A DNA stretch of 64,000 nucleotides, taken from the IMG/VR virus record IMGVR_UViG_3300036670_000258, positions 33,412 through 97,411 of that record, one strand, 5' to 3'. Under the pieces are notes generated by a model that saw nothing but the letters and a program-made list of their open reading frames with translations, had not been told where the DNA came from and did no database searches. A program made the position numbers and the translations under genes. Below are positions 42,946 through 56,158 of this stretch, one piece after another (the stretch's first letter is position 1; each line of letters starts with the position of its first letter). The stretch is from a virus.

Positions 42946-43866
42946 TTACCATTTTGAATCACTAATAAATTGTTTGTGATATTTTATTAAAGCTAATTCC
43001 TTTGCCTTGGCCTCTATCTCAATATCTAATGACATATCGTACGTTTCAATAAGATCATACAAATAATCAGCATGTGCCCTTAGGATTGATGTAGTATCTT
43101 CATACAATTGCTTAGATGAAGAGTAGTGGCATAATTGTCTTATACCTTTAGGCCATGTTAACGCTGCTAATTTAAGACCTTCTTCTTCAGAAATAACATC
43201 ATCATAGCAAAAATGGTGATGATAATCAAATGTAATTGGAGTGCCACATAGCTCATAGATTTTATAGAGATCTTTTACACCATATTGACTTGGCTTATCA
43301 TCATTCTCTAAAACTAGACGGGATGTTACATTTACAGGAAGTAGTTTAAAGTTTTTTGCAAATCTTTGAATAGCAGAATCCTTATCGCCATAACTACCAC
43401 CGACATGTATATTCATAGCAGCATAATGGGTTCTTGGTAAACCCATAAGATCCATAACATCGCCATGTTGTGATAGCTCTTGAATAGCACTATCAACTAC
43501 CCTTTGTGTAGGACTTGCTAACACATTAAAAGGACCTGGATGGAATGTTAAACGTTGGCTTGTTTTCTTTGCATAATCACCTGCCCTTTTTAACAAAACC
43601 TTGATTGCTTCGTAATTTGGAAGATCTGATAAATCGTATTCTGAACTCCATGGAAACATACTTGATGACATTCTATACATTGTAATTCCTTGTGCATAAT
43701 TCCATTCTAATATCTTAATCATATCAGTTAAATTTGCCTCTGCCAATTCACTTGCATATTTAATTCCCTTTGCATCGAATGTTCTTTTAATCATTCCTCT
43801 TCCAATCTTAACACCTGTTTTATCAAGAGTTAGATTAATACAACAATATCCAAAATCTGCACTCAT
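42946..43866 (-). CDS. UV damage endonuclease (UvdE/UVDE family)
   Basis: TIM-barrel metal endonuclease that nicks 5' to UV photoproducts. Family motifs: FGYCCINLTL at the N-terminus, TMYRMSSSMFPWSS, RLTFHPGPFNVL, MNIHVGGSYGDK, LVLENDDKPSQYG, and PITFDYHHHFCYDD with the metal-binding His and Asp. Length (307 aa) is typical. The frame is open from 43893, but that ATG overlaps the promoter's 18-nt proximal element, so the ATG at 43864-43866 is chosen. It is preceded by an A-rich leader with AAAAGG. It replaces the T4 denV type of repair. Confidence 0.85.
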   Translation of the reverse strand: MSADFGYCCINLTLDKTGVKIGRGMIKRTFDAKGIKYASELAEANLTDMIKILEWNYAQGITMYRMSSSMFPWSSEYDLSDLPNYEAIKVLLKRAGDYAKKTSQRLTFHPGPFNVLASPTQRVVDSAIQELSQHGDVMDLMGLPRTHYAAMNIHVGGSYGDKDSAIQRFAKNFKLLPVNVTSRLVLENDDKPSQYGVKDLYKIYELCGTPITFDYHHHFCYDDVISEEEGLKLAALTWPKGIRQLCHYSSSKQLYEDTTSILRAHADYLYDLIETYDMSLDIEIEAKAKELALIKYHKQFISDSKW

Positions 43867-43891
43867 CCTTTTATTTTTTTGTGTTTTTATC

Positions 43892-43952
43892 ATATGTAAA
43901 TATAATCAATATATAAGTTTTTTGAAAATTTAATGTGTTAATTTTTTGTTAA
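43892..43952 (-). promoter_or_regulatory. Bipartite phage promoter, copy A (UV endonuclease)
   Basis: On the minus strand, TTAACA-N5-TTAACAC (43952 to 43935) is followed after exactly 25 nt by TTGATTATATTTACATAT (43909 to 43892). The end of the element is 26 nt before the UvdE ATG. The spacing and both boxes match copies at 45216, 45306, 49083 and 50406. Confidence 0.7.
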
Positions 43953-43953
43953 A

Positions 43954-44184
43954 TTATTTAGAGGATAAAAATGTTCTTATACTCATTAGCGCCCTTTCAG
44001 CAGAGTATGCCTCGTTTGCAGTTAGAACTTCTATATCTTGAAATAGTAATCCTCTGCCAACATTAGCAAATATAGTTCCTCCAATATGATCGATCGAATT
44101 AATACGATAAACACTAGAAGTATCTAATGTTACGATATAATCCGCTTTAATTAATCTTTCAATTCGTTCTTCAATTGATATCAT
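43954..44184 (-). CDS. Small hypothetical protein (76 aa)
   Basis: Unrecognised, alpha/beta. It starts with a charged helix (SIEERIERLIKADYIV), then strands (VTLDTSSVYRINSIDHIGG), and ends in a helix. The start overlaps the end of the next gene by 14 nt. The stop lies 2 nt before the distal box of promoter copy A. Confidence 0.55.
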   Translation of the reverse strand: MISIEERIERLIKADYIVTLDTSSVYRINSIDHIGGTIFANVGRGLLFQDIEVLTANEAYSAERALMSIRTFLSSK

Positions 44185-44587
44185 TAATTGTTTTTGTTTT
44201 ATATGCTAATAAATAATCAGTGACTGCACATTGCCTTAATCCCTCTAATATAATGACATCCATTCCTTTACCTCCTATCTTACTAATAAAAGAAGAAATA
44301 TATTGAGCTGTGCTAATATTTTCATCATTATTTGTCATAATATCCTTTTGATTTAAAACGCCATTGATAGCCATTGAAACTAATCCACTGCATATCGCGT
44401 CAGTGACAGTACTATCATCTAAAAATCTTAATCCTGAATAATAATTTCCGGACTTTGGAAATTTTAAAATGATTTCCTCTTTTGTTTTTCGCATCCTAAA
44501 TAATGACACTGCGGTTAATAGTGTATTCCTTACATTTTCACACAGAGAAATATTACTAGTCGTTAGTTTAAAATTTTCACTCTTCAT
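44171..44587 (-). CDS. Hypothetical helical protein (138 aa)
   Basis: Unrecognised. The ATG at 44585-44587 (MKSENFKLTTSN) is preferred over an upstream one at 44638 that would run through the preceding gene's end. The body is helical and mixed (VRNTLLTAVSLFRMRKTKEE, TVTDAICSGLVSMAINGVLN), without catalytic or membrane signatures. Confidence 0.5.
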   Translation of the reverse strand: MKSENFKLTTSNISLCENVRNTLLTAVSLFRMRKTKEEIILKFPKSGNYYSGLRFLDDSTVTDAICSGLVSMAINGVLNQKDIMTNNDENISTAQYISSFISKIGGKGMDVIILEGLRQCAVTDYLLAYKTKTINDIN

Positions 44588-44598
44588 TTTTTTGTTTT

Positions 44599-44916
44599 TT
44601 AAAATCGTGGCATGCCAATGTTTTGCATTAATTGACAATAAAATACTAAAGCGATTACATTAGTCGAGTCAGCTCGTCCGAATGCATTTCTAAGATCATT
44701 ATTTACAACTGCCTGTACAAAACCACCCCCAGCATATCCGATTTCCCATTTAGTGCATAGGATTGAAGTACCTATACCTATAATGTGATTTGCCTGGAGT
44801 TCGGTAATTCCGTTTAACCCCGTGTAATCTTTATTTTTAGATAAATAATCAGATACTACTTCTCTTATTTTTTCTATTTTTTCTAAAATAGAAATTTGTG
44901 TTGTATTTTTTTCCAT
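44599..44916 (-). CDS. Hypothetical protein (105 aa)
   Basis: Unrecognised. A charged N-terminal helix precedes a Gly/Ala-rich segment (LQANHIIGIGTSILCTKWEI, then YAGGGFVQAVVNN) that may be a compact hydrophobic core rather than a membrane span. It is part of the four-gene run driven by promoter copies B and C. Confidence 0.5.
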   Translation of the reverse strand: MEKNTTQISILEKIEKIREVVSDYLSKNKDYTGLNGITELQANHIIGIGTSILCTKWEIGYAGGGFVQAVVNNDLRNAFGRADSTNVIALVFYCQLMQNIGMPRF

Positions 44917-44927
44917 GTTTAAATATT

Positions 44928-45185
44928 TTAAAGTTTAGGATATTGGTTACATGTATCGAAGATTCTTGTAACTCTGGATGCTAGTTTAGTTTGTAGGTGA
45001 AGAGCCATTATTTGAAGATCTTCGTATAAATATCCATCGAATAAGCCGTATAGTAAATTTTGAAGATTAAACGATAAAGAATCTTCAATCTCATCAGAAT
45101 AACTAATTTCTTTTATAATTGAGATAATTTCATACCGTGTATCTTCTATCATGCATTCGTGCCTATTAAAAATTGAATAATTCAT
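44928..45185 (-). CDS. Small hypothetical protein, first gene after tandem promoters (85 aa)
   Basis: Unrecognised and mainly helical (IISIIKEISYSDEIEDSLSF, LNLLYGLFD-like middle). Two bipartite promoters lie 31 and 121 nt upstream, so it is likely strongly or differentially expressed at the head of the run 44928-43954. No motif indicates a function. Confidence 0.55.
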   Translation of the reverse strand: MNYSIFNRHECMIEDTRYEIISIIKEISYSDEIEDSLSFNLQNLLYGLFDGYLYEDLQIMALHLQTKLASRVTRIFDTCNQYPKL

Positions 45186-45215
45186 ATTGATGGTGTTTAA
45201 GATTGATTAATTATT

Positions 45216-45276
45216 ATATATAAATCTAATCATTTTCTGATTAAAAAAGAAATAATTAGTGTTAATCTTTTGTTAA
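45216..45276 (-). promoter_or_regulatory. Bipartite phage promoter, copy C
   Basis: TTAACA-N5-TTAACAC (45276 to 45259), a 25-nt spacer, then ATGATTAGATTTATATAT (45233 to 45216), 31 nt before the 85-aa gene. The proximal element is the most divergent of the five, but the spacing is identical. Confidence 0.65.
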
Positions 45277-45305
45277 TATACACATTACATTTGTTTTAAT
45301 TTGTT

Positions 45306-45366
45306 ATATGTAAATATAAACAAAAAAACCCTGATTTTTCAATCAGGGTTGTTAAAATTGTGTTAA
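45306..45366 (-). promoter_or_regulatory. Bipartite phage promoter, copy B, with embedded terminator
   Basis: TTAACA-N5-TTAACAA (45366 to 45349), a 25-nt spacer occupied by a terminator hairpin, then TTGTTTATATTTACATAT (45323 to 45306). It lies upstream of copy C, giving tandem promoters for the gene at 44928-45185. Confidence 0.65.
45327..45350 (-). terminator. Rho-independent terminator after the 114-aa membrane protein
   Basis: A perfect 10-bp stem AACCCTGATT/AATCAGGGTT with a 4-nt loop is followed on the minus strand by TTTTTG. It lies 21 nt after the membrane-protein stop and inside the spacer of promoter copy B. Confidence 0.9.
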
Positions 45367-45370
45367 ATTT

Positions 45371-45715
45371 TTATTTCCAAAAGAGCTGAACACATAAGAT
45401 ACATATTGCCAATCCTAGTGATATTATCGTTTTAGTAGTTAATCCCTCATTCAGCATGAAATAAGTCAAGAAAGTAAATGTGAGCATGCCACACGAAAAT
45501 CCTATAAATCTGCTTGGCCAAACAATTCCACCATAATATTCTGCAATTAACTTAGTAGCAAATATAAACAAATAACTAATAATGGATCCTCCTATCATGG
45601 CAACTAAAACTGGATTCCTTTTAAACCATGGCCATATAAATTGACCATTAGTTTGTACCCAAACTAATGATTGTCCGACTATAAAAATAGATATTCCTAT
45701 TATTAAATTTTTCAT
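45371..45715 (-). CDS. Membrane protein with about four transmembrane segments (114 aa)
   Basis: Hydrophobic spans are visible near residues 3-20, 35-58, 66-88 and 94-112 (NLIIGISIFIVGQSLVW; VLVAMIGGSIISYLFIF; IGFSCGMLTFTFLTYFM; IISLGLAICILCVQLFW). Short polar loops and several Trp flank the membrane. Family not recognised. It is the last gene before a terminator and follows RNase HII after 2 nt. A modifier of the host envelope is plausible; a holin is less likely given four spans. Confidence 0.65.
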   Translation of the reverse strand: MKNLIIGISIFIVGQSLVWVQTNGQFIWPWFKRNPVLVAMIGGSIISYLFIFATKLIAEYYGGIVWPSRFIGFSCGMLTFTFLTYFMLNEGLTTKTIISLGLAICILCVQLFWK

Positions 45716-45717
45716 TT

Positions 45718-46350
45718 TTAAAAAAGAGATGAGGTTGAAGTTAACATGTGTGATATAAAACTTGGTCTGTGTACTTCACATGGACCTAATGTCTTAATGG
45801 CATTAATATGAGCTGAAGTTCCATATCCTTTATTCGAGTTCCAACCATATCCTGGATTTTCAATATCTAATTGTTTCATCATACTGTCTCTTTCGGTTTT
45901 TGCTAAAATACTAGCAGCTGCGATTGAAATATATTTATTGTCTCCTCCTACTATTGTTTCAAACGGCTTTCCTTCAAATCCATGGAATTGATCTCCGTCT
46001 ACTAGTATAAAATCAAACTTTACTTTTTTCTGAACTTCTTCTAAGCATCTCTGCATTCCCCTTAAGGTTGCTCTTAAAATATTAGTTGATTCTATTTCTG
46101 CAGGATATATATGTTCAATATGATATGCAATTGCGTTTTCTTCTACTATTAATCGAGCGTCTTTACGTTGCTGTTCGTTTAATAATTTTGAATCTTTAAT
46201 CAATACGTTTTCAAATCCAAATGGCATAATACATGCCGATACTGTTACGGGTCCTGAAAGAGCACCTCTTCCTGCCTCGTCAAGTCCTATTTCTATAATC
46301 GAAGAATCCCCTGAGTAGGAATGTTTAAGTAATATATTTCTAGTTTCCAT
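45718..46350 (-). CDS. rnhB: Ribonuclease HII
   Basis: Cleaves RNA in RNA-DNA hybrids, removing primers or misincorporated ribonucleotides. All family motifs are present: GLDEAGRGALSGPV with D24/E25, KDSK with D53, FILVDGDQF with D118, and ASILAKTERD with D155. The C-terminal GYGWNSNKGYGTSAHINAI segment is typical of type 2 enzymes. Length (210 aa) is normal. T4 uses an unrelated 5'-nuclease (rnh), so this is a host-type replacement. An inverted repeat at 46347-46380 covers the start codon. Confidence 0.9.
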   Translation of the reverse strand: METRNILLKHSYSGDSSIIEIGLDEAGRGALSGPVTVSACIMPFGFENVLIKDSKLLNEQQRKDARLIVEENAIAYHIEHIYPAEIESTNILRATLRGMQRCLEEVQKKVKFDFILVDGDQFHGFEGKPFETIVGGDNKYISIAAASILAKTERDSMMKQLDIENPGYGWNSNKGYGTSAHINAIKTLGPCEVHRPSFISHMLTSTSSLF

Positions 46351-46380
46351 CTATATGTTTTATATAAGTTATATAGATGG
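46347..46380 (-). promoter_or_regulatory. Hairpin covering the RNase HII start codon
   Basis: CCATCTATAT and ATATAGATGG form a perfect 10-bp inverted repeat around a 14-nt loop. In the mRNA the ATG of RNase HII lies inside the 3' arm, and there is no T-run after it, so this looks like a translation-limiting hairpin rather than a terminator. Confidence 0.45.
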
Positions 46381-46396
46381 ATAGTATAATGTTTCT

Positions 46397-47110
46397 TTAT
46401 TTATTTGGATTTTCAAGCTTCCATTTATCATATCGTTTAACAACATCTTGTAAAATTTTTGCTCTTACAATATCTTTAATTTCAAATTGATGATGGCCTA
46501 CTCCATTTATTCCTTCCATTAATTTAATAAATCCAGGTAAACCTGCGTTTGCTTTAGGAATATCGTATTGACTGATATCTCCACTCACTAGTACTTTGGA
46601 AGTTTTACCCATTCTTGTAACAAAGAGAGTTAGTTGAGAAAAGGATGCGTTTTGTGCTTCATCTAAAATCATAAATGAGTCATCAAATGTATCTCCTCTC
46701 ATAAATGCAAGCGGTTTAAATTCAATTATGCCATGGTGAATTAAACTTTCAGTTAATTCATTACCAACAATTTTTTTAAAATTAGAAATATATGATTGCA
46801 TATATGGGTCTATTTTATCTGCAATATCACCTGGTAAAAATCCTAATTTCTCACCAGATTCCTGTATTGGTTTACAAAGGATTATTTTTTTTACTTTTTT
46901 TTCTGCAAGTAACATTAATGAAGAGTAGCATGCTGTATATGTTTTTGAAGTTCCAGCAGGACCTGAACAAAATGTGATTTGATTTTTTAAAATCTGTTGG
47001 ACGTATTCTCGCTGGCTATCTTTTAAATTAACACCTTTGATGTCATCTAATTTAACCGATATTCTTTTAACACCCGATGGTGATTCCGAAGTAGTCTTCT
47101 TTTGTTGCAT
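46397..47110 (-). CDS. PhoH-like ATPase
   Basis: P-loop ATPase of the PhoH family, common in marine and T4-like phages. Walker A is at about residues 48-57 (CSGPAGTSKTYTA), Walker B at 147-151 (MILDEAQNA), and a sensor motif follows (LVSGDISQYD). KPIQESGEKLGFLPGD is the family's conserved loop. Length (237 aa) is that of the short PhoH form. Its cellular role is associated with RNA metabolism or stress and is not settled. It lies between RNase HII and small genes in the non-structural block. Confidence 0.85.
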   Translation of the reverse strand: MQQKKTTSESPSGVKRISVKLDDIKGVNLKDSQREYVQQILKNQITFCSGPAGTSKTYTACYSSLMLLAEKKVKKIILCKPIQESGEKLGFLPGDIADKIDPYMQSYISNFKKIVGNELTESLIHHGIIEFKPLAFMRGDTFDDSFMILDEAQNASFSQLTLFVTRMGKTSKVLVSGDISQYDIPKANAGLPGFIKLMEGINGVGHHQFEIKDIVRAKILQDVVKRYDKWKLENPNK

Positions 47111-47123
47111 GGTTATGTTATAT

Positions 47124-47381
47124 TTAATCGCCTGTCATTATTACCAGGTCTTTTAATTTTTTTAAGATATCACATTTTTCATATTCTTCAGTTTCTATAA
47201 AATAAGCAAGCAAAACATCTATGAACATGCTTCTTTGTCCCTTTCCATGTGGAATGTCTATTGTGTTTTTACCGTCTTGATATACTATGAATCTGTTAAC
47301 TGTTTTTGTAAAGCTTTTAGTAATTATATTGTAGCTGGATCTCATCAGAGAGTCTCTTTCTTCTCCACTTACATTTTCCAT
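47124..47381 (-). CDS. YEKC-module small protein 1 (85 aa)
   Basis: Member of a four-gene paralogue family. The N-terminal 50 residues are variable; the C-terminus has the shared helix-turn pattern AYFIETEEYEKCDILKKLKD. The pattern (aromatic/hydrophobic, acidic, YEKC, then K and leucines) resembles UVR motifs of UvrB, ClpC and McsA with Ala replaced by Cys. The middle contains IDIPHGKGQRSMF. It directly follows the 88-aa paralogue, suggesting tandem duplication. Confidence 0.65.
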   Translation of the reverse strand: MENVSGEERDSLMRSSYNIITKSFTKTVNRFIVYQDGKNTIDIPHGKGQRSMFIDVLLAYFIETEEYEKCDILKKLKDLVIMTGD

Positions 47382-47473
47382 TATTGAATATTGTTTTTAA
47401 TAGTGGAAATAACTCCACCTACATTATATATTTATATGGTAACATGTTAAATATCCAGAAGTCTAAAAGGTTA

Positions 47474-47740
47474 TTATATTATAGCGGTAGTTTTTAGTTT
47501 AATTATTATTTTTTTAAGTTCTAGACATTTCTCATATGCCTCTCTTTCTAAAAAGAAATTTAATACACTTTGCACCCCTTCTATTTTATCGTTAATAGTT
47601 CCGTTATGCTTTAACGCACCCATTTTACTTTCTACTATTGAATTGTATATTAGCTCCATCATATCTTCCTTTGAAGAATTTTGTAGTTTTTTTAAAAATT
47701 GATTGCTATTTATGCTGTTGTATTCCTCTAATTCATCCAT
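47474..47740 (-). CDS. YEKC-module small protein 2 (88 aa)
   Basis: Helical, acidic N-terminal half (SSKEDMMELIYNSIVESKMG), a basic middle (ALKHNGTINDKIEG), and the family C-terminus NFFLEREAYEKCLELKKII. It lies between the J-domain gene and YEKC protein 1. The function is unknown; the module resembles UVR protein-interaction motifs. Confidence 0.65.
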   Translation of the reverse strand: MDELEEYNSINSNQFLKKLQNSSKEDMMELIYNSIVESKMGALKHNGTINDKIEGVQSVLNFFLEREAYEKCLELKKIIIKLKTTAII

Positions 47741-47793
47741 CTCTGGTTTAAATTTTTTTAATAATATAATTTAGGCTTTAAAATCATTATAAA

Positions 47794-48597
47794 TTATATA
47801 TCGTATTTTATCTTATTTAATAGCTCTATTTGCTTATTGTTTAAAATGATATTACGCGTTCTTAATTTGACAAATAAGTTTCCAAATCCTTCATTATTAT
47901 ATATTGGCATTCCCTTACCAACTATTCTAAGGAGTTTAGAATCATAAGATCCTTGAGGAACCTTAATAATTACATTTTGTAGTTTATTTTTAATTTTAAA
48001 GTCACCTCCTAATATTAAATCAATCCAATCTAATTGGAGGTCTATATGTATATCGCTGCCGTTTATTATAATGTCTAAATCGTAAAGAACATTTACTGTT
48101 AAAATAATATCCCCTGGTGTTGAGCTAATACCATTAGTAGGGAGCGCACCTTTTCCACTTACTTTAAGTTTTGTGCCATTTGGAATTCCTTTAGGTATAT
48201 TAATATTAAATCCACCCGTGCCTACATCAATGTGTCTTAATGCTCCATAATAACATTCTTCCAATGAGATCGATATTGAAACCTTAATGTCAGCACCCTT
48301 TGTTACACCACCACTAAATGCGGTATTGAACATTTGTGAAAAATCATCACTAGAAAAAAAGTTAGTCCAATCGTATTGCGTATTTGGAGCTGACTTGTAT
48401 GTTGCTTCAGTATAGCCCTTTGTTTTACCTTCGATGCCTGTTAATGTATCATACGCATGTGCAATTTTTTTAAACTCAGTATCATCACCATTATTTACAT
48501 CAGGATGATGTAATTTTACAAGCTTGCGGTATGCCCTTTTAATATCCTCAGATGTGGCTTCACGAGATATGCCTAGTACTTTATAGTGATCTATCAT
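47794..48597 (-). CDS. J-domain co-chaperone, CbpA/DnaJ type without zinc finger
   Basis: Stimulates Hsp70 ATPase and delivers substrates. The J-domain is at residues 1-65 with HPD at 31-33 (LHHPDVN). It is followed by a G/F-like linker (TNFFSSDDFSQMFNTAFSGG) and two beta-barrel substrate-binding domains (ISISLEECYYGALRHIDVG; then IIKVPQGSYDSKLLRIVGKG). The CxxCxGxG zinc domain is absent, as in CbpA. Length (267 aa) is slightly short. No DnaK is in the window, so it probably recruits host DnaK. Confidence 0.85.
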   Translation of the reverse strand: MIDHYKVLGISREATSEDIKRAYRKLVKLHHPDVNNGDDTEFKKIAHAYDTLTGIEGKTKGYTEATYKSAPNTQYDWTNFFSSDDFSQMFNTAFSGGVTKGADIKVSISISLEECYYGALRHIDVGTGGFNINIPKGIPNGTKLKVSGKGALPTNGISSTPGDIILTVNVLYDLDIIINGSDIHIDLQLDWIDLILGGDFKIKNKLQNVIIKVPQGSYDSKLLRIVGKGMPIYNNEGFGNLFVKLRTRNIILNNKQIELLNKIKYDI

Positions 48598-48607
48598 ATC
48601 TTGTCAA

Positions 48608-48793
48608 TTAAACCTGTGTATTTAAAGTAGTTTTTGATTTTAAAGATTTTAAAGATTCCCTGGATAATTCTCTAGATTCTTTTATTTTTTTAGAATTTAA
48701 TGCTATTTCCCTTGATTGAGCATTTTGCATACAGGTCGCAATTATCAATAGAGCATCTGCGATTTTTTCTAAACTTTCTGCCTCTGTTTTCAT
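48608..48793 (-). CDS. Small helical hypothetical protein (61 aa)
   Basis: Unrecognised. Ser/Lys/Glu-rich; a helical N-terminus (SLEKIADALLIIATCMQNAQ) is followed by basic repeats of KxxxESRE type. It lies between YEKC protein 3 and the J-domain gene with short gaps. Confidence 0.5.
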   Translation of the reverse strand: MKTEAESLEKIADALLIIATCMQNAQSREIALNSKKIKESRELSRESLKSLKSKTTLNTQV

Positions 48794-48807
48794 ATTAGTG
48801 TGTTTAT

Positions 48808-49065
48808 TTATTGTAGATGATATTCATATTCATCTATGATTTGTTTAATATTTTGACATTTTTCATACTCTTCAACTTCTAGAAATAATAAAATCATTTC
48901 GTGTAATGTATTAATAACAGGGGTGACGTCCATCCCTCTTTCTTTCATTTCATCGAGATCGATTCCCTTTGAAATTAACATATCGTAATTATCATTACAT
49001 AACTTAAACTTTAAGTTGTTAATTAATTCTGCTGTTGGTGGGTTAAATGCATCAAAATTTTCCAT
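48808..49065 (-). CDS. YEKC-module small protein 3 (85 aa)
   Basis: First gene after bipartite promoter copy E (proximal box ends 18 nt before the ATG). The N-terminus MENFDAFNPPTAE resembles that of gp32 (MENFDIFNLG), which may be chance. The C-terminus has the family module LLFLEVEEYEKCQNIKQII. No enzyme motif. Likely an early-expressed regulatory or adaptor protein by context. Confidence 0.65.
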   Translation of the reverse strand: MENFDAFNPPTAELINNLKFKLCNDNYDMLISKGIDLDEMKERGMDVTPVINTLHEMILLFLEVEEYEKCQNIKQIIDEYEYHLQ

Positions 49066-49082
49066 ATATTGTTTGTTTTACT

Positions 49083-49143
49083 ATATGTAAATATAATCAT
49101 TTTAAATGAAAATAAAAAAATATAAATGTTAACTTTTTGTTAA
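49083..49143 (-). promoter_or_regulatory. Bipartite phage promoter, copy E (YEKC protein 3 operon)
   Basis: TTAACA-N5-TTAACAT (49143 to 49126), a 25-nt spacer, then ATGATTATATTTACATAT (49100 to 49083). It heads the operon YEKC3, 61-aa protein, J-domain protein, YEKC2, YEKC1, PhoH and rnhB. Confidence 0.7.
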
Positions 49144-49146
49144 AAG

Positions 49147-49320
49147 ATTATTGTCTTAGATAATGAATCAACTATTAGTTTATTTATCTGATTTTGAATA
49201 TTGTTATTTGTGATAGAATCCACATAACGTGTTACTATTCCATTTTCTAATTTCAACAATTAGATACGTACTAGCAATCATACGCGTGTCATCAGTTGAT
49301 TCATTATCTAAGACAATAAT
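49147..49320. repeat. Perfect 27-bp inverted repeat with 120-nt spacer
   Basis: Positions 49147-49173 and 49294-49320 are exact reverse complements over 27 bp. A mismatch and four more pairs extend the repeat outwards. The right arm lies within a decayed glycosyltransferase frame (encoding IIVLDNEST); the left arm is an inverted copy of the same coding piece, so it most likely arose by template-switching or inverted duplication. Confidence 0.85.
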
Positions 49321-49407
49321 ATTTTCACAAAATTGTTAATAATGCCTTAGATAGTATGAAATCATCTCTTGCTCATTCCATAATGTAACGTATGCCCATA
49401 TTTTCAT
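49204..49407 (-). pseudogene. Truncated glycosyltransferase (GT2-type) remnant
   Basis: From the ATG at 49405-49407 the frame reads MKIWAYVTLWNEQEMISYYL, RHY, a TAA stop, then QFCENIIVLDNESTDDTRMI. The pattern MKIWAY...LWNE...LRHY-x-QFC-x-x-IIVxDNxSTD is the N-terminus of family-2-like glycosyltransferases, and the internal TAA is one base from GAA (Glu), the expected residue. The frame ends at 49204 after 67 codons, far short of a 250+ aa enzyme, so this is a broken remnant. The stretch lies between the exonuclease gene and promoter copy E and carries no other gene. Confidence 0.7.
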
Positions 49408-49409
49408 AA

Positions 49410-50135
49410 TTATACGATTATAGGCAAGTATGACATTTTTAAAAAAACATTTATAGTCGATTTAACATCAGACTCGCAATATGTTGCTATTTTTTCTAAA
49501 TTTCCATTCCAATATTCAAATGTAGTTTCATTTCCTCTCATTTCTGATTTAGGTGAAGGAATTTGAAGACACTCACATATTAAATCAAGTGAAGCACTAT
49601 TCCAACCTGCAAATTTCCAAATCTCATAACTATCTACTAAGCAGTTTTCCCATGGCTTCTTTTTTTGCAAGTGAAATTGAGATGGAGTTAACACATTGTT
49701 AATAATAGCCCTTTTAAGTAAAAACGGAAAGTCAAAGTTTTTTATATTATGACCTGTGAATTTTACATTAGGAATTTTATTAAATATAGAATTAGCAGTA
49801 CCCATGAATTCGGTTAATAATATCGATTCGTCATGACCGCTGAATGTTTTAATCCTTGCCATGTTTGGCATTTCGTTTTCATCAAATTGAATATGACCAA
49901 TTGATATAGTTACAATTTTAGCAAATTCGGGATTAAGAGCAGCCTTATCTATGTATATTTGATCATCCCTTAAACCGACACATGATTTTTCAGTGTCTCT
50001 ATAGAAATTTGCCTTTTTTTCCCACATTTTAGTTGCTCCGGGTCTTTTTTCTATAAATTCTTCGTATGTATGATATTCTGATACCGTTTCAATATCAATA
50101 AACATCATTGCCTTTAGTTCTTGAATGTTATACAT
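49410..50135 (-). CDS. DnaQ-fold 3'-5' exonuclease, PolB-exonuclease-like
   Basis: DEDD-type exonuclease. Exo I is MFIDIETVS with D14 and E16. Exo II is FTGHNIKNFDFPFLLKRAI with the conserved Asp. Exo III is IATYCESDVKSTINVF with Y-x-x-x-D. It resembles the stand-alone exonucleases related to the proofreading domain of family B polymerases. Length (241 aa) fits that group. It may degrade ssDNA or proofread in trans. It is preceded by a small gene whose promoter is copy D, and the two genes overlap by 8 nt. Confidence 0.8.
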   Translation of the reverse strand: MYNIQELKAMMFIDIETVSEYHTYEEFIEKRPGATKMWEKKANFYRDTEKSCVGLRDDQIYIDKAALNPEFAKIVTISIGHIQFDENEMPNMARIKTFSGHDESILLTEFMGTANSIFNKIPNVKFTGHNIKNFDFPFLLKRAIINNVLTPSQFHLQKKKPWENCLVDSYEIWKFAGWNSASLDLICECLQIPSPKSEMRGNETTFEYWNGNLEKIATYCESDVKSTINVFLKMSYLPIIV

Positions 50136-50376
50136 TTTGATTGATTTTAAAAATGTTATAAATTGATATTGGATATGTTGTTTTTTTGCCGTGCTTATTT
50201 AGTTTTTCACTGTCATCACTCATCCAATACCATGCATGACCGTATATTTTCGTTAATGGTTCATCCAATTCAATAATAGGACCATTGAATTGACTTCCTG
50301 CAAATTTAAAATAATATTTTTCACCTATTTTTGGGTTTGGAACGCTGATAGTCTGTACTTTTAAATTCTTTGCCAT
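50128..50376 (-). CDS. Small hypothetical protein (82 aa)
   Basis: Unrecognised. The ATG at 50374-50376 (MAKNLKVQTISVPNPKIG) is chosen because the longer frame starts upstream of promoter copy D. The protein is beta-rich with aromatic residues (GEKYYFKFAGSQFNGPIIEL, then YGHAWYWMSDDSEKL), like a small SH3- or OB-type barrel. It overlaps the exonuclease start and may be coexpressed with it. Confidence 0.55.
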   Translation of the reverse strand: MAKNLKVQTISVPNPKIGEKYYFKFAGSQFNGPIIELDEPLTKIYGHAWYWMSDDSEKLNKHGKKTTYPISIYNIFKINQNV

Positions 50377-50405
50377 ATTGTATATGTTTAGTTGTTTTAA
50401 TTTGT

Positions 50406-50466
50406 ATATGTAAATATAATCAAAAAACTCCATATTAAAAAATATGGAGTGTTAAAGTTTTGTTAA
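50406..50466 (-). promoter_or_regulatory. Bipartite phage promoter, copy D, with embedded terminator
   Basis: TTAACA-N5-TTAACAC (50466 to 50449), a 25-nt spacer occupied by a 10-bp terminator hairpin, then TTGATTATATTTACATAT (50423 to 50406). The element ends 30 nt before the 82-aa gene. Confidence 0.7.
50427..50450 (-). terminator. Rho-independent terminator after the glycosyltransferase gene
   Basis: A perfect 10-bp stem ACTCCATATT/AATATGGAGT with an AAAA loop, then TTTTTG on the minus strand. It ends the fibre operon and lies within the spacer of promoter copy D. The stem sequence is nearly the same as that of the terminator at 31389. Confidence 0.9.
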
Positions 50467-50477
50467 ATTAAGTATTA

Positions 50478-52325
50478 CTATTCTTGATATATTATGTTTG
50501 CAGCCATTTCTTCAGCTCCATAACGAGATTCTGTATTTAATGGTGAGTTTGGATTTTCAGAATATGCCCAATCGTTTAACCCTAAATGAGTAAACCTATC
50601 ATTAATTTGTTCATTATAGTATGATGATATGGTTCCTACTCTACGTTGAATATCTGCTCTCGCTAAATCATGTGTATTTTGTCCATTTGAATTACTATAT
50701 AAAAATTGAATATATCCTAATTTAGGTATCTTACATGTAATTGTTTTCAAGAAGGTTCTAACTACTAATTCATAATCATCGGCAATAGCTAGGTTTCGGT
50801 TATGTCCTCCTATTTCAAAATATGTCGATCTTCTCCATGCTCTTACATGATTTGGAACCCCTACTATATGTCTAATTGTTTTTGGATTAATATTATGTTG
50901 AGTTGCGATAGACATAATATTTCCATTATATTCCTCAGATCTATATTTACCATATCCAAGTGCAAATCCTTCAGGATACGTTTGGGATTCCCATTGTTCA
51001 TTGACCTCGAGGGTATCATTAAAAAAGAAGCCGGCCTCAGGATGTTTCTTCGACGCCTTAAATAAATCCATAGTACATGATGGAACCAATAAATCGTCAT
51101 GATCTAATTCTGCAAGAAGATATCCCTTTGCCAATGTACAACATTTCCATTTAACGTCTCCAATATTCCCTCCGCTTTTTTCTCTAAAGTCATATACCTT
51201 AACCCTAGGATCTTTACTTGCGATCTTTTCAGCTACTTTCAGTGACCTACCCCCATCAGTTGAATCATTGACAATTACCCATTCCCAATTAGAATATGTC
51301 TGATTCAATAATGATTGATATGTATTATATAATTTGTTTCCAATATTATAGATCGGTGTAAAATAAGATATCATATCCGCATCTTCTAATCCATTGATGT
51401 CTAACATTGACAGCATGGCACATTGGTATGCAGCTTCTCCTACTTCTTGGTTTGTTTTTTCATGCGTCATATTAATCCACTTTCTTCTAAATTGTAAAGG
51501 TAGTTGAGATAGATTTTCGAAATCTTTCCAACTATTTCCTCGAGTTACAATACTATCTGGTTTAAATGAAGCAATTTGAGATATAATATCGTCGTCATTT
51601 TTTAGATATAATACATTTAAATTGTCTGCCTCATAATTTACATATTGAATAGACCGGAGCACTGGCATATCCTTTCCAATATATATTATCTTCGGAACAT
51701 TTGCCAATGGTTTTAATGATAAAGCATTATAATAACACAATTCTTTTTTTACAAAAAAGAAGATATCTGGTTTTTCATTATATACCTTTTCGATTAGTAT
51801 TCCATCTGCACAATAATCAGGTTCGAATGAGTATTCCACATTGTTATTATATACATTTGAATGTATAATATATTGTGCTAAATCGACTAAGCCAACTTTC
51901 ATAGCAGATGGAATAGCAATCCTACTTGTAAGTCCGCTATGATCTCTTTTATCTACCTTTTGTGAAAATACATAAACACTGTGATATGGGTGATGTTGAT
52001 TTGTTTCAAATATATTTTTATAGAATTGAGGATGTAATATGTTATCGTCATCTATAAAATATACCCACGTATCAGTGAATGATTTTATTAATTTACTACA
52101 CTGTGGAAATAACATACCCACTGAATCTCCTCTTTCAAAATGATATATTGTATTTTTATCCTTGATGTCAAATAGCAATTCAGCATCAATATCTTTAAGT
52201 GATGTTACATCAAACATGACATGCCATTTAATGTTAATATCTTCGGGTATATTATTAAATATTGATTTTTTAACTTCTTTTAAATTATGTAACCGTGTAC
52301 ATCTCGTTATTATACTAATATTCAT
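50478..52325 (-). CDS. Two-domain glycosyltransferase (615 aa)
   Basis: Starts at the ATG at 52323-52325 (MNISIITRCTRLHNLKEV); an upstream ATG at 52433 would overlap the oxygenase gene. The N-terminal domain has an acidic metal motif in WVYFIDDDNILHP. Between it and the second domain is a region (IIYIGKDMPVLRSIQYVNYE) resembling a short linker fold. The C-terminal domain is a typical GT2: ISYFTPIYNIGNKLYNTYQS, WEWVIVNDSTDGG, and the DxD-type AELDHDDLLVP. Transfers sugars from nucleotide donors. With DUF2827 and the oxygenase nearby, glycosylation of fibres or of host/phage surface is a reasonable idea, not shown. Confidence 0.75.
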   Translation of the reverse strand: MNISIITRCTRLHNLKEVKKSIFNNIPEDINIKWHVMFDVTSLKDIDAELLFDIKDKNTIYHFERGDSVGMLFPQCSKLIKSFTDTWVYFIDDDNILHPQFYKNIFETNQHHPYHSVYVFSQKVDKRDHSGLTSRIAIPSAMKVGLVDLAQYIIHSNVYNNNVEYSFEPDYCADGILIEKVYNEKPDIFFFVKKELCYYNALSLKPLANVPKIIYIGKDMPVLRSIQYVNYEADNLNVLYLKNDDDIISQIASFKPDSIVTRGNSWKDFENLSQLPLQFRRKWINMTHEKTNQEVGEAAYQCAMLSMLDINGLEDADMISYFTPIYNIGNKLYNTYQSLLNQTYSNWEWVIVNDSTDGGRSLKVAEKIASKDPRVKVYDFREKSGGNIGDVKWKCCTLAKGYLLAELDHDDLLVPSCTMDLFKASKKHPEAGFFFNDTLEVNEQWESQTYPEGFALGYGKYRSEEYNGNIMSIATQHNINPKTIRHIVGVPNHVRAWRRSTYFEIGGHNRNLAIADDYELVVRTFLKTITCKIPKLGYIQFLYSNSNGQNTHDLARADIQRRVGTISSYYNEQINDRFTHLGLNDWAYSENPNSPLNTESRYGAEEMAANIIYQE

Positions 52326-52341
52326 TGTATTTTTTATTAAA

Positions 52342-53274
52342 TTAAATGTCAAAAAAGAACATGTGAAATAGTCTTGCGTTTTCCTTTTTATCTCCAAAAT
52401 ATTGCGTGGCAGCGTGAATGTTTTTAGCGTCAAACAGGACTAGTCGATTATATTTGTTTCCTATTTCATCAATTTTTTCAAAGTGACTTCCATCATAGAA
52501 ATTCATTTCAGCATTACTTCCCTTAAATGCATTTACATAACTTTCAGTCATTCTTTTTTCATTATCAAAGGAATAATCGCCAGTTACTTTACTTCGATAA
52601 AATGTAGTTCCGGAATTAGCCGGAGCGTCTGGTGATAAAAATACCATACCTGCATAATTTTGATTGTCAACATGATAAACGATAGGCTGATCTGCTGTGC
52701 AGAATTGAAATATTCCGTTTGCGTAACTATCATCATTCCAATTATAAATAGGTTTACCTATTATTTTTTCAAGTTTTTCTTTCATACCAATAATAGAAAA
52801 CCTTTCAGTTGCCCTCTCTCCTTTATGATAACTTGATGGTGAAAAATATATTTCTTTGATTGCCCATTCACGTATAAAATCAGGGTCTGAATAAAAATCA
52901 TCTACTACAATTAATCCCTTTTCTTCAGATTTAAATCCAGAATGGTATGCGATCCACTTTGCCATAGAGCCAATATCTAATAGTTCCTTTTTCCCCTTTA
53001 CCTTTAATTGAATAGAATCAAATGCATTTGATTTTTTTAGATAAAAATTAATACCAGGATTTAAATCAGTTGGATTGTAATATAGCGTCACATCTTGCCT
53101 TGGAGTAAATATAGGTGAAACAGATTTTTTATCTATTAAAATATCTTCAATATTGTATTTAGTTGAACAGATCCATCCGTGGATATCATGGAGCGTGTCG
53201 GAATGGTCTGATATGCTGTCAATATACATGTATACTTCTGGCATATTAGTCTCATGTTTAATTATGTTTGCCAT
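52342..53274 (-). CDS. 2-oxoglutarate/Fe(II)-type oxygenase, DUF6445-like (310 aa)
   Basis: The facial triad is visible: H201-x-D203 in IVYHVDNQNYAG and H287 in DAKNIHAATQYFG, followed by R301 (ARLFHMFFFD), which would bind 2-oxoglutarate. AGMVFLSPDAPANSGTTFYR is the DUF6445-like core. The N-terminal 110 residues look like a separate small domain. The substrate is unknown; hydroxylation of Pro/Lys or of nucleotides would be possible, and the adjacent collagen-like fibre makes a prolyl-type role worth testing. It starts a three-gene unit with the glycosyltransferase. Confidence 0.6.
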   Translation of the reverse strand: MANIIKHETNMPEVYMYIDSISDHSDTLHDIHGWICSTKYNIEDILIDKKSVSPIFTPRQDVTLYYNPTDLNPGINFYLKKSNAFDSIQLKVKGKKELLDIGSMAKWIAYHSGFKSEEKGLIVVDDFYSDPDFIREWAIKEIYFSPSSYHKGERATERFSIIGMKEKLEKIIGKPIYNWNDDSYANGIFQFCTADQPIVYHVDNQNYAGMVFLSPDAPANSGTTFYRSKVTGDYSFDNEKRMTESYVNAFKGSNAEMNFYDGSHFEKIDEIGNKYNRLVLFDAKNIHAATQYFGDKKENARLFHMFFFDI

Positions 53275-53887: not shown

Positions 53888-56158
53888 TTATTTATCTTTA
53901 TTTTTTAAAAGAAGTCTTACAAGTTCCTTTAATTCATCTATTTGTGATTGTTGTTCCTTTATAGCTTCAATGAAAAGACCCGCCATGTTACCATATGCGA
54001 CCGAGTACATTCCAGTTACGTCTGCTTTAACTAATTCTGGCATTACCTTTAAAACTTCCTGGGCAATAACACCAGATGATCGAGATATTTTATCATCTTT
54101 GTCATTTCTTGTAAATGTAACACCCCGGAGCGCTTTAATCTTTTCAATTGCATCTGGAATTACTTTAATGTTTTCTTTAACTCTAATATCCGAAAATGCA
54201 GTAATATCACCACTTGCTGTAATTGAGCCAGTAACAAGTAAATTGTAATTAACTCGTGTATTGTTATCTCCATTACCTACTGAGAAGGCTTCTACGTTCC
54301 TATACCCTCCGGTATAGAAAACATGTCCTCCATATCCTTGATGCGCGCTATATCTAACTCCTGTATAAAATGAAACATCTAAAGGTTGTGTCCAGTCACC
54401 TGCAGACTTTCCTATCCAGTAATTCATATCATTATTATTCAAATACATGCCTATTGCAGCTGAATTAGTAACACTACCTCCTCCTAATATAAAGGTGTTT
54501 CCTGAGATATTATTAGCAGTATTTGCATTACCATTCAATGCTCCATTAAACGTAGGTGCTGTTAATGCACCTGTTAAAGTTCCTCCACTAATAGGCAATG
54601 CATAACTTGCTACGTTTGAACTATTAAGATAATAAGCCCATCCTCCGAAAGTACCGCCTGACACACACCTTACTGCTAATTTATTAGCATTATCTTCCCA
54701 TCCCCATGCTATTTGAGTTCCCCATAAATTACCTCCGTTAGCGTGACGAAGAGTTTCATAGTTCCACCATGTTCCACCAGGACCATTAGAAATATTCGAA
54801 TTATCACCTGAGTATCTCTTAGTGCCAGCTTCTGTTGCACTAAATTCTGCGTTTGCATCAGTAAAAGATTTTCTCTGGAAAGCAGTAGCGTATGATGCAT
54901 TACCGCCAATACTTAATGAACCCGCATTCCCGGTTAATCCGCCGCCAGACCCATAATATGTTCCTGCAATACCTATGTTTCCTGATGATGCATTTAAAAA
55001 TATTCTTGAAGCACCGTTTGCTGCAACATACATTCCCCATCCAGATCCAGCACCCTGGGCACTTACACCTGCATTACCGCCAACATTAAATCCTATACCG
55101 TACATAATACCAAGGGATGTAAGGGCAGGATTATATGCACTACCGATAGTATATATGGGATTTGTGTGAGCGGCATTATCTCCGACATTATTATATGAGC
55201 CTTCGAGAAATCCGGTAATTGAAGATGTTCGTTTAATTGTACCCGATAAAGTACCTCCTGTTAATGGTAATTTACTACTGTCAGTTGCAGTGGTAGTTGG
55301 TGGTCCAACTGCACCTTGAGGTCCAACTAATCCTTGAGGTCCAATTAATCCCTGATCTCCAATAAATCCTTGAAACCCAACTAATCCCTGTTGTCCAATA
55401 AATCCTTGAAAACCTCGTAATCCTTGAGGTCCAACTAATCCTTGAGGTCCAATTAATCCCTGATCTCCTTTAAAACCCTGAGGTCCAACTAATCCTTGAG
55501 GTCCAATTAATCCCTGATCTCCAATAAATCCTTGAAACCCAACTAATCCCTGATCTCCTTTAAAACCTTGAAACCCAATTAATCCTTGAGGTCCAACTGA
55601 TCCTTGATTTCCAACTAATCCTTGAGGTCCAACTAATCCCTGTTGTCCAATAAATCCTTGAAAACCTCGTAATCCTTGATTTCCAATTAATCCTTGATTT
55701 CCAATTAATCCTTGAGGTCCAACTAATCCTTGAAACCCAACTAATCCTTGAGGTCCAGTAATACCTTGAAACCCAACTAATCCTTGAGGTCCAGTAATAC
55801 CTTGATTTCCAACTAATCCCTGTTGTCCAACTAATCCTTGAAAACCTTGTAATCCTTGATTTCCAACTAATCCTTGAGGTCCAACTAGCCCTTGAGGTCC
55901 AACTAATCCTTGAGGTCCAGTAATACCTTGATTTCCAACTAATCCCTGAGGTCCAGTAATACCTTGATTTCCAACTAATCCCTGTTGTCCAACTAATCCT
56001 TGAAAACCTTGTAATCCTTGATTTCCAACTAATCCTTGAGGTCCAACTAGCCCTTGAGCGCCTATAATACCCTGATTTCCTTGGTATCCTTGATTTCCAA
56101 TAGTAGATAACGCTTCTTCTAGCCCATCTATTTGTTTGATTTTAATTGGTGGAGGCAT
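53888..56158 (-). CDS. Tail fibre: collagen-like shaft, knob and S74 chaperone end (756 aa)
   Basis: Likely long tail fibre or host-range adhesin. Residues about 20-290 are some 90 G-x-y triplets in a hexapeptide rhythm (GPQGLVGNQGITGPQG). Residues about 330-600 are Gly/Asn-rich and include pyocin-knob-like text (NGPGGTWWNYETLRH; WAYYLNSSNVASYALPISGG). The C-terminus (FSDIRVKENIKVIPDAIEKI, then GVIAQEVLKVMPELV and VAYGNMAGLFIEAIKEQQSQ) is a peptidase-S74 intramolecular chaperone domain, which helps trimerise fibres and is often self-cleaved. The DNA of the shaft is highly repetitive, so copy number may vary between relatives. Confidence 0.8.
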   Translation of the reverse strand: MPPPIKIKQIDGLEEALSTIGNQGYQGNQGIIGAQGLVGPQGLVGNQGLQGFQGLVGQQGLVGNQGITGPQGLVGNQGITGPQGLVGPQGLVGPQGLVGNQGLQGFQGLVGQQGLVGNQGITGPQGLVGFQGITGPQGLVGFQGLVGPQGLIGNQGLIGNQGLRGFQGFIGQQGLVGPQGLVGNQGSVGPQGLIGFQGFKGDQGLVGFQGFIGDQGLIGPQGLVGPQGFKGDQGLIGPQGLVGPQGLRGFQGFIGQQGLVGFQGFIGDQGLIGPQGLVGPQGAVGPPTTTATDSSKLPLTGGTLSGTIKRTSSITGFLEGSYNNVGDNAAHTNPIYTIGSAYNPALTSLGIMYGIGFNVGGNAGVSAQGAGSGWGMYVAANGASRIFLNASSGNIGIAGTYYGSGGGLTGNAGSLSIGGNASYATAFQRKSFTDANAEFSATEAGTKRYSGDNSNISNGPGGTWWNYETLRHANGGNLWGTQIAWGWEDNANKLAVRCVSGGTFGGWAYYLNSSNVASYALPISGGTLTGALTAPTFNGALNGNANTANNISGNTFILGGGSVTNSAAIGMYLNNNDMNYWIGKSAGDWTQPLDVSFYTGVRYSAHQGYGGHVFYTGGYRNVEAFSVGNGDNNTRVNYNLLVTGSITASGDITAFSDIRVKENIKVIPDAIEKIKALRGVTFTRNDKDDKISRSSGVIAQEVLKVMPELVKADVTGMYSVAYGNMAGLFIEAIKEQQSQIDELKELVRLLLKNKDK

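Follow-up and report, generated by a model that had tools for sequence, protein, structure and literature searches.

A Pho box-like promoter class ahead of the non-structural genes of an uncultured Bacteroidota phage

Introduction

It is already known from cyanophages that phage genes can come under the control of host PhoB, the host PhoBR system acting on pstS of phage P-SSM2 and on phage S-PM2d in Synechococcus (PMC10976474). The operator of the PhoB/PhoP regulators, the Pho box, consists of two 11-nt direct repeat units (PMC4415409). In Bacteroides fragilis, pstC expression at low phosphate requires PhoB, and in vitro the protein binds the promoter of this gene (PMC3547664); we found no sequence or consensus of a Bacteroidota Pho box in that study or in the other papers retrieved. 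Here we describe promoters built around the box TTAACA-N5-TTAACA in a phage genome, the 161,411-bp IMG/VR record IMGVR_UViG_3300036670_000258, five of which lie on the minus strand of the window that was analyzed (64,000 nt; record positions 33,412-97,411). Their anatomy, and the presence of the same box before phosphate genes of cellular Bacteroidota, lead us to regard these sites as probable host RNA polymerase promoters that are activated by host PhoB through a Bacteroidota Pho box.

Results

An initial annotation had described the five window sites as copies of a bipartite promoter. Their boxes and 18-nt elements occupy the positions given there (Table 1), TTAACA-N5-TTAACA is exact in each, the spacing between box and element is exactly 25 nt at all five, and a pattern scan of the window returned these five exact boxes and no others. 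The whole record contains 29 exact boxes, whereas the reversed pattern occurs 0 times, which rules out chance, and the window sites are thus part of a genome-wide class about six times larger than first stated. Read out one by one, nearly all of the 29 sites repeat the same cassette of box, 25 nt and then TTGATTATATTTACATAT or a near variant, the spacer being 24 nt at site 136,496. When the record was scanned for box and core at gaps of 10-59 nt (2 + 2 mismatches allowed), 28 pairs fell at 31 nt, counted from the last box base to TATATTTACAT, and none at 30 or 32 nt, with the other 47 distances yielding seven pairs in total (three of them at 42 nt). The reading as a promoter class is supported, and the repeats, with their 11-bp period, are arranged like a site for an activator bound to a single DNA face. 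In six further promoters (genome positions 17704 -, 105754 +, 112948 -, 115785 -, 143665 - and 145638 -) the -7 element is near-perfect while an exact box is lacking, and two of them (143665 and 145638) keep a degenerate remnant of the box. This indicates that the box is an activator module that can be present on or absent from a host-type core.

All 29 exact boxes lie in the non-structural part of the record at 76-161 kb (p ~1e-8 under uniform placement), so that, as had been proposed, non-structural genes alone are served and placement is not random. No exact box was found at 1-76 kb, where the structural genes, the DNA polymerase and a UvsX-like recombinase are encoded. The genes behind the boxes include those for DNA ligase, a KaiC/DnaB-like ATPase, a poly(A)/CCA polymerase-like protein, a glucosaminidase, a metallophosphoesterase, an HNH nuclease, PhoH, a 3'-5' exonuclease and an endonuclease, together with a cluster of 11 tRNAs, and from its sequence the 76-161-kb part resembles the early-type region that a large T4-like phage would have. 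About ten small proteins of a tandem family, starting MKLGK or MKLS and carrying S-x-x-D-S-V repeats (genome 105782-107420 and 102736-103217), are encoded in the densest cluster of these promoters.

The spacers had been thought to share no sequence, which proved wrong on two counts. In the aligned sites (n = 28) an ATTTT block is conserved ~20 nt before TATATTTA, which is the -33 position; at this position group A phages have a T-run, and a second phage group (group B) has TTTGG. Many spacers are also terminators. In 12 of the 29 sites, two of them in the window, a hairpin is followed by a T-run, and the intrinsic terminator formed in this way has the -33 T-run as its loop. Such spacers were found in 56 of 163 distinct viral sites, compared with 12 when the spacers were shuffled and with 6 of 119 host sites, so that terminator-promoter cassettes make up a good many of the units.

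The core partly resembles the Bacteroidota primary-sigma promoter (-33 TTTG, -7 TAnnTTTG) in its T-rich -33 region, with TATATTT at the expected distance of ~20 nt further on and TTTGG kept in one group. It differs in that the last base of the -7 element is A and an extension of CATAT or CTATG follows, and in that the -33 region of this phage is mostly TTTT or TTTC. The phage -7 element fits TAnnTTT, and host sites carry the box with TAnnTTTG. With T4 middle promoters the sites share an upstream activator box and the presumed use of host polymerase, whereas here the box resembles a host operator, and no TGCTT-type MotA box is present near -30 in the conserved columns of the 28 aligned sites, in keeping with the original view that the promoter is not of the MotA type.

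Two 11-nt direct repeats upstream of an intact -33/-7 core amount to the anatomy of an OmpR/PhoB-type operator. Like the Pho box of PhoB/PhoP regulators (PMC4415409), the box consists of two such repeats upstream of the core and stands before host phosphate-uptake genes, but in the phage it is followed downstream by an intact -33 region. The half-site in Bacteroidota would be TTAACA, compared with CTGTCAT in E. coli. TTAACA-like half-sites are also those of PhoP in B. subtilis. Being AT-rich, upstream of -33 and on a single helical face, the repeats might instead be a UP-like element touched by the alpha subunit of RNA polymerase in strong constitutive promoters, but we consider this highly improbable: the TTAACA repeats are base-specific and exact in 29 sites, not a general A/T tract, and the boxes in hosts are sparse and enriched at phosphate genes, not at rRNA or ribosomal protein genes.

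The promoter had also been called phage-specific. This is not supported, and a phage-only reading was rejected, because the box is common in hosts as well and stands at the same distance from the core before phosphate-starvation genes of cellular Bacteroidota. When the strict pattern of box, N31 and the host-type core TANNTTTG was scanned across 84,980 prokaryote species (counts from the prokaryote and IMG/VR pattern scans are lower bounds), the matches listed were overwhelmingly from Bacteroidota, and phosphate genes are prominent behind them, encoding, as read from their sequences, PstS, PstA, PhoB, Pit, Na/Pi cotransporter, OprP/O porin and alkaline phosphatase. Pfam searches of 70 dereplicated downstream proteins returned PHO4 (5), Na_Pi_cotrans (4), Porin_O_P (4), PBP_like_2 (3) and alkaline phosphatase (1), along with two response regulators with a Trans_reg_C domain, at least one of them a clear PhoB. 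Among the 25 families listed for 70 control proteins of the same loci, which leave aside single-member families further down, there was no PHO4, Na_Pi_cotrans, Porin_O_P, PBP_like_2 or alkaline phosphatase; phosphate families thus account for 17 of 70 downstream proteins and 0 of 70 control proteins in the listed families (Fisher p = 2.5e-6). Two PhoU proteins and two ABC permeases are also present in the control set, which is to be expected next to Pho operons. In an independent search that started from genes, a box (≤1 mismatch) stands no more than 300 nt upstream of 8 of the 15 PstS genes that passed the cut-off, whereas 0 of 15 contain one inside the gene.

With the gap left free, the distance from box to TAnnTTTG in 395 Bacteroidia genomes peaks at 21, 31 and 42-43 bp. 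These peaks are one helical turn apart, which fits an activator obliged to face the polymerase. The phage promoters use the 31-bp class, and their N5 sequences (AAACT, AAAGA and ATTTC) are like those before host phosphate genes and unlike AGTCA. Two properties of a Pho box were therefore found, namely two direct repeat units with an 11-nt period and a box of equal sequence and position upstream of host phosphate-acquisition genes. In Bacteroidia we also observed direct repeats like TTAACAAGTCATTAACA, in many cases accompanied by two more TAACA units, at 21 or 42-43 bp from TAnnTTTG; they precede small lipoprotein-like genes and perhaps mark a second OmpR-family regulon. In Flavobacterium an exact box with the 31-nt gap precedes a conserved MarR-family gene, the core overlapping a TTTGTATATACAA palindrome, and a link of this regulator to phosphate control is possible.

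The same layout recurs in other phages. At least 117 IMG/VR contig stretches contain the exact pattern with TANATTTA, and in these loci 193 of 205 box-to-core pairs lie at 31 nt, which is partly a matter of selection since the scan pattern demanded 31. In whole phage records scanned with a free gap of 20-45 nt, 28 of 28 matched and 0 of 28 gave a control match, the pattern matches being nearly all at 31 nt, with 22 box matches in a record of 236 kb, 19 in one of 200 kb and 26 in one of 68 kb. DNA polymerase identity is 91-100% in the nearest group, 31-35% in the TTTGG group (over part of an unsplit 840-aa protein) and ~32% in the isolated Chryseobacterium phages MA9V-1 and MA9V-2, which have 1-2 exact sites. 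The promoter layout is therefore common to lineages with very different DNA polymerases, isolates included. In the known relatives PAU and Lak-B1 and in four huge phages no box at 31 nt was found, two of the records each giving a single match that was out of register, and a BLAST search of the group B promoter against isolate phages gave chance matches only. At the DNA level the region as a whole has three weak matches to known phages, each spanning 2-6% of the query.

Phages often bring their own activators, MotA of T4 being an example. An activator of this kind, unrelated to PhoB and encoded by the phage, might bind the TTAACA repeats, the likeness to host Pho sites then being mimicry or chance; some 29 sites would suit a dedicated activator, and several relatives encode sigma-like proteins. 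Divergent lineages, however, share the box and the 31-nt gap with host phosphate genes. The Trans_reg_C (OmpR/PhoB-type DNA-binding) domain was absent in 18 of 18 phage records searched, and with a linear and possibly incomplete record the absence of a gene counts as weak evidence. A phage-borne PhoB/OmpR activator was rejected on its absence from these 18 records. Most genes of these phages are unannotated, which leaves a small probability for a phage-encoded activator of another type, and we judge such an activator unlikely. Taken together, divergent phages with the same layout and 18 records lacking the domain favor a host protein as the activator.

A second motif, GATATATAA, occurs 19 times, compared with 4-14 times in shuffled sequence, and lies 12-62 nt before 14 genes, many in box-free regions. 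At the sites of Table 1 it stands about 25-46 nt ahead of start codons. It resembles the T4 late TATAAATA, and these suggestive counts make it a candidate that may represent a second (late or replication) promoter.

Start codons had been placed 18-31 nt after four of the five window elements. They are indeed close to these elements, but the distance is 17-30 nt, and the fifth element belongs to the tandem promoter 3 (Table 1). The likely ATG of the endonuclease gene is 25 nt downstream of the promoter 1 element. Beyond the first gene of promoter 4 are DnaJ-like (47794-48597), PhoH-like (46397-47110) and RNase HII-like (45718-46350) genes, the DnaJ-like and RNase HII-like assignments being read from the sequence. 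In promoters 3 and 5 the terminator loop (TTTTTA in promoter 5) overlies the -33 position. An Rfam search of window positions 43000-51000 gave no RNA family match. Short proteins of 85-88 aa are clustered in this promoter region (44928-45185, 47124-47381, 47474-47740 and 48808-49065, minus strand); three of these four have an EYEKC-like segment close to the C terminus in common and are possible paralogues. Elsewhere in the window a 756-aa protein with collagen-like G-x-Q-G repeats (53888-56158, minus strand) coincides with a local G+C peak of 0.40 against ~0.30.

Table 1. Promoter parts and second motif (window coordinates unless marked genome; ORF, open reading frame)
Feature	Sequence	Position	Strand	Gene driven or context
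Promoter 1 box, Pho-box-like activator site	TTAACAAAAAATTAACAC	43935..43952	-	
Promoter 1 spacer	T-run at -33 position	43910..43934	-	
Promoter 1 -7 core element	TTGATTATATTTACATAT	43892..43909	-	endonuclease gene 42946-43893
Promoter 2 box, Pho-box-like activator site	TTAACAAAAGATTAACAC	45259..45276	-	
Promoter 2 -7 core element	ATGATTAGATTTATATAT	45216..45233	-	85-aa gene 44928-45185
Promoter 3 box, Pho-box-like activator site		45349..45366	-	tandem, 90 bp upstream of promoter 2
Promoter 3 spacer, intrinsic terminator	stem ACCCTGAT/ATCAGGGT, then T-run	45324..45348	-	after ORF 45371-45715
Promoter 3 -7 core element	TTGTTTATATTTACATAT	45306..45323	-	
Promoter 4 box, Pho-box-like activator site	TTAACAAAAAGTTAACAT	49126..49143	-	
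Promoter 4 -7 core element	ATGATTATATTTACATAT	49083..49100	-	first gene 48808-49065
Promoter 5 box, Pho-box-like activator site	TTAACAAAACTTTAACAC	50449..50466	-	
Promoter 5 spacer, intrinsic terminator	stem CTCCATAT/ATATGGAG, then T-run	50424..50448	-	after ORF 50478-52433
Promoter 5 -7 core element	TTGATTATATTTACATAT	50406..50423	-	50128-50433 and 3'-5' exonuclease 49410-50135
Second motif, genome	GATATATAA	9353, 11407, 15424, 36234, 51120, 64753, 76035, 86731, 112435, 121776, 136205	-	
Second motif, those of the genome sites within the window	GATATATAA	2823, 17709, 31342, 42624, 53320	-	

Discussion

In the mechanism that we favor, each promoter would be read by host RNA polymerase carrying the primary sigma factor and would consist of three parts at fixed distances, the two-repeat box with its 11-bp period, the T-rich -33 region and the -7 element TATATTTA. 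The box would be the Bacteroidota Pho box, and host PhoB, an OmpR/PhoB-type response regulator, would bind it upstream of the -33 region and recruit or stabilize the polymerase. Most non-structural genes (small early-type genes, tRNAs, DNA ligase, PhoH and nucleases) would in this way be under the host phosphate-starvation regulator, with the box promoters presumably activated at low phosphate and early in infection. At ~40% of sites the spacer doubles as the terminator of the upstream gene, and the box-free structural and core replication genes probably use the other motif, GATATATAA.

Several observations weigh against this proposal. Predicted phage Pho boxes were unreliable predictors of PhoB binding in the cyanophage study (PMC10976474), the phage -7 element ends in A and not in the G of TAnnTTTG, and a need for phosphate starvation would be odd for a lytic phage, unless infection activates PhoB or the hosts are chronically phosphate-limited. 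Of 30 Bacteroidales pstC genes, 0 have a box ahead of them; many of these genes follow another open frame, and for those the result is uninformative. Many host genes behind the exact pattern have no evident role in phosphate metabolism (the Flavobacterium MarR gene, a 180-aa Flavobacteriaceae family and TonB-type receptors), the TTAACAAGTCATTAACA variant at 21/42-43 bp precedes genes resembling another regulon, and related regulators may accordingly share the half-site of the box. It is conceivable, though rather doubtful and somewhat less likely than a phage-encoded activator, that one or more other host regulators of the OmpR/PhoB family with this half-site act here and that phosphate is one part of the regulon, as the lipoprotein-like genes behind the variant and the MarR and 180-aa families behind exact boxes at 31 nt might suggest. 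At the 31-nt spacing of the phage, however, phosphate uptake is the most frequent coherent theme, and it is the N5 sequences of phosphate genes that the phage sites match. Activation by host PhoB hence remains the likeliest explanation in our judgment.

Activation by PhoB would resemble the cyanophage case, in which phage genes, including some of replication type (DNA polymerase), come under host PhoB. Binding is demonstrated in that system and here predicted from sequence. The cyanophage study reported degenerate boxes at variable positions in 7 of 14 up-regulated genes, compared with 29 near-identical boxes at one distance here, where they form the main recognized class of non-structural promoters, in phages of Bacteroidota, and are often fused to a terminator. 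The new features are the scale, the constant geometry, the fusion to a terminator, the phylum of the hosts and the reappearance of the class in divergent phage lineages.

We hold it about an even prospect that widespread large Bacteroidota phages run their non-structural programme on host Pho boxes, with infection gated by PhoB or triggering it, and with a previously undescribed terminator-Pho cassette that insulates many transcription units. The sites provide a testable Pho box for Bacteroidota as well as PhoB-type promoters for use as tools, and the general lesson is that an uncultured phage can betray, through its main promoters, the host regulator that it exploits. If the proposal is true, a host nutrient signal would set the timing or strength of non-structural expression, and the outcome of infection would be tied to phosphate supply.

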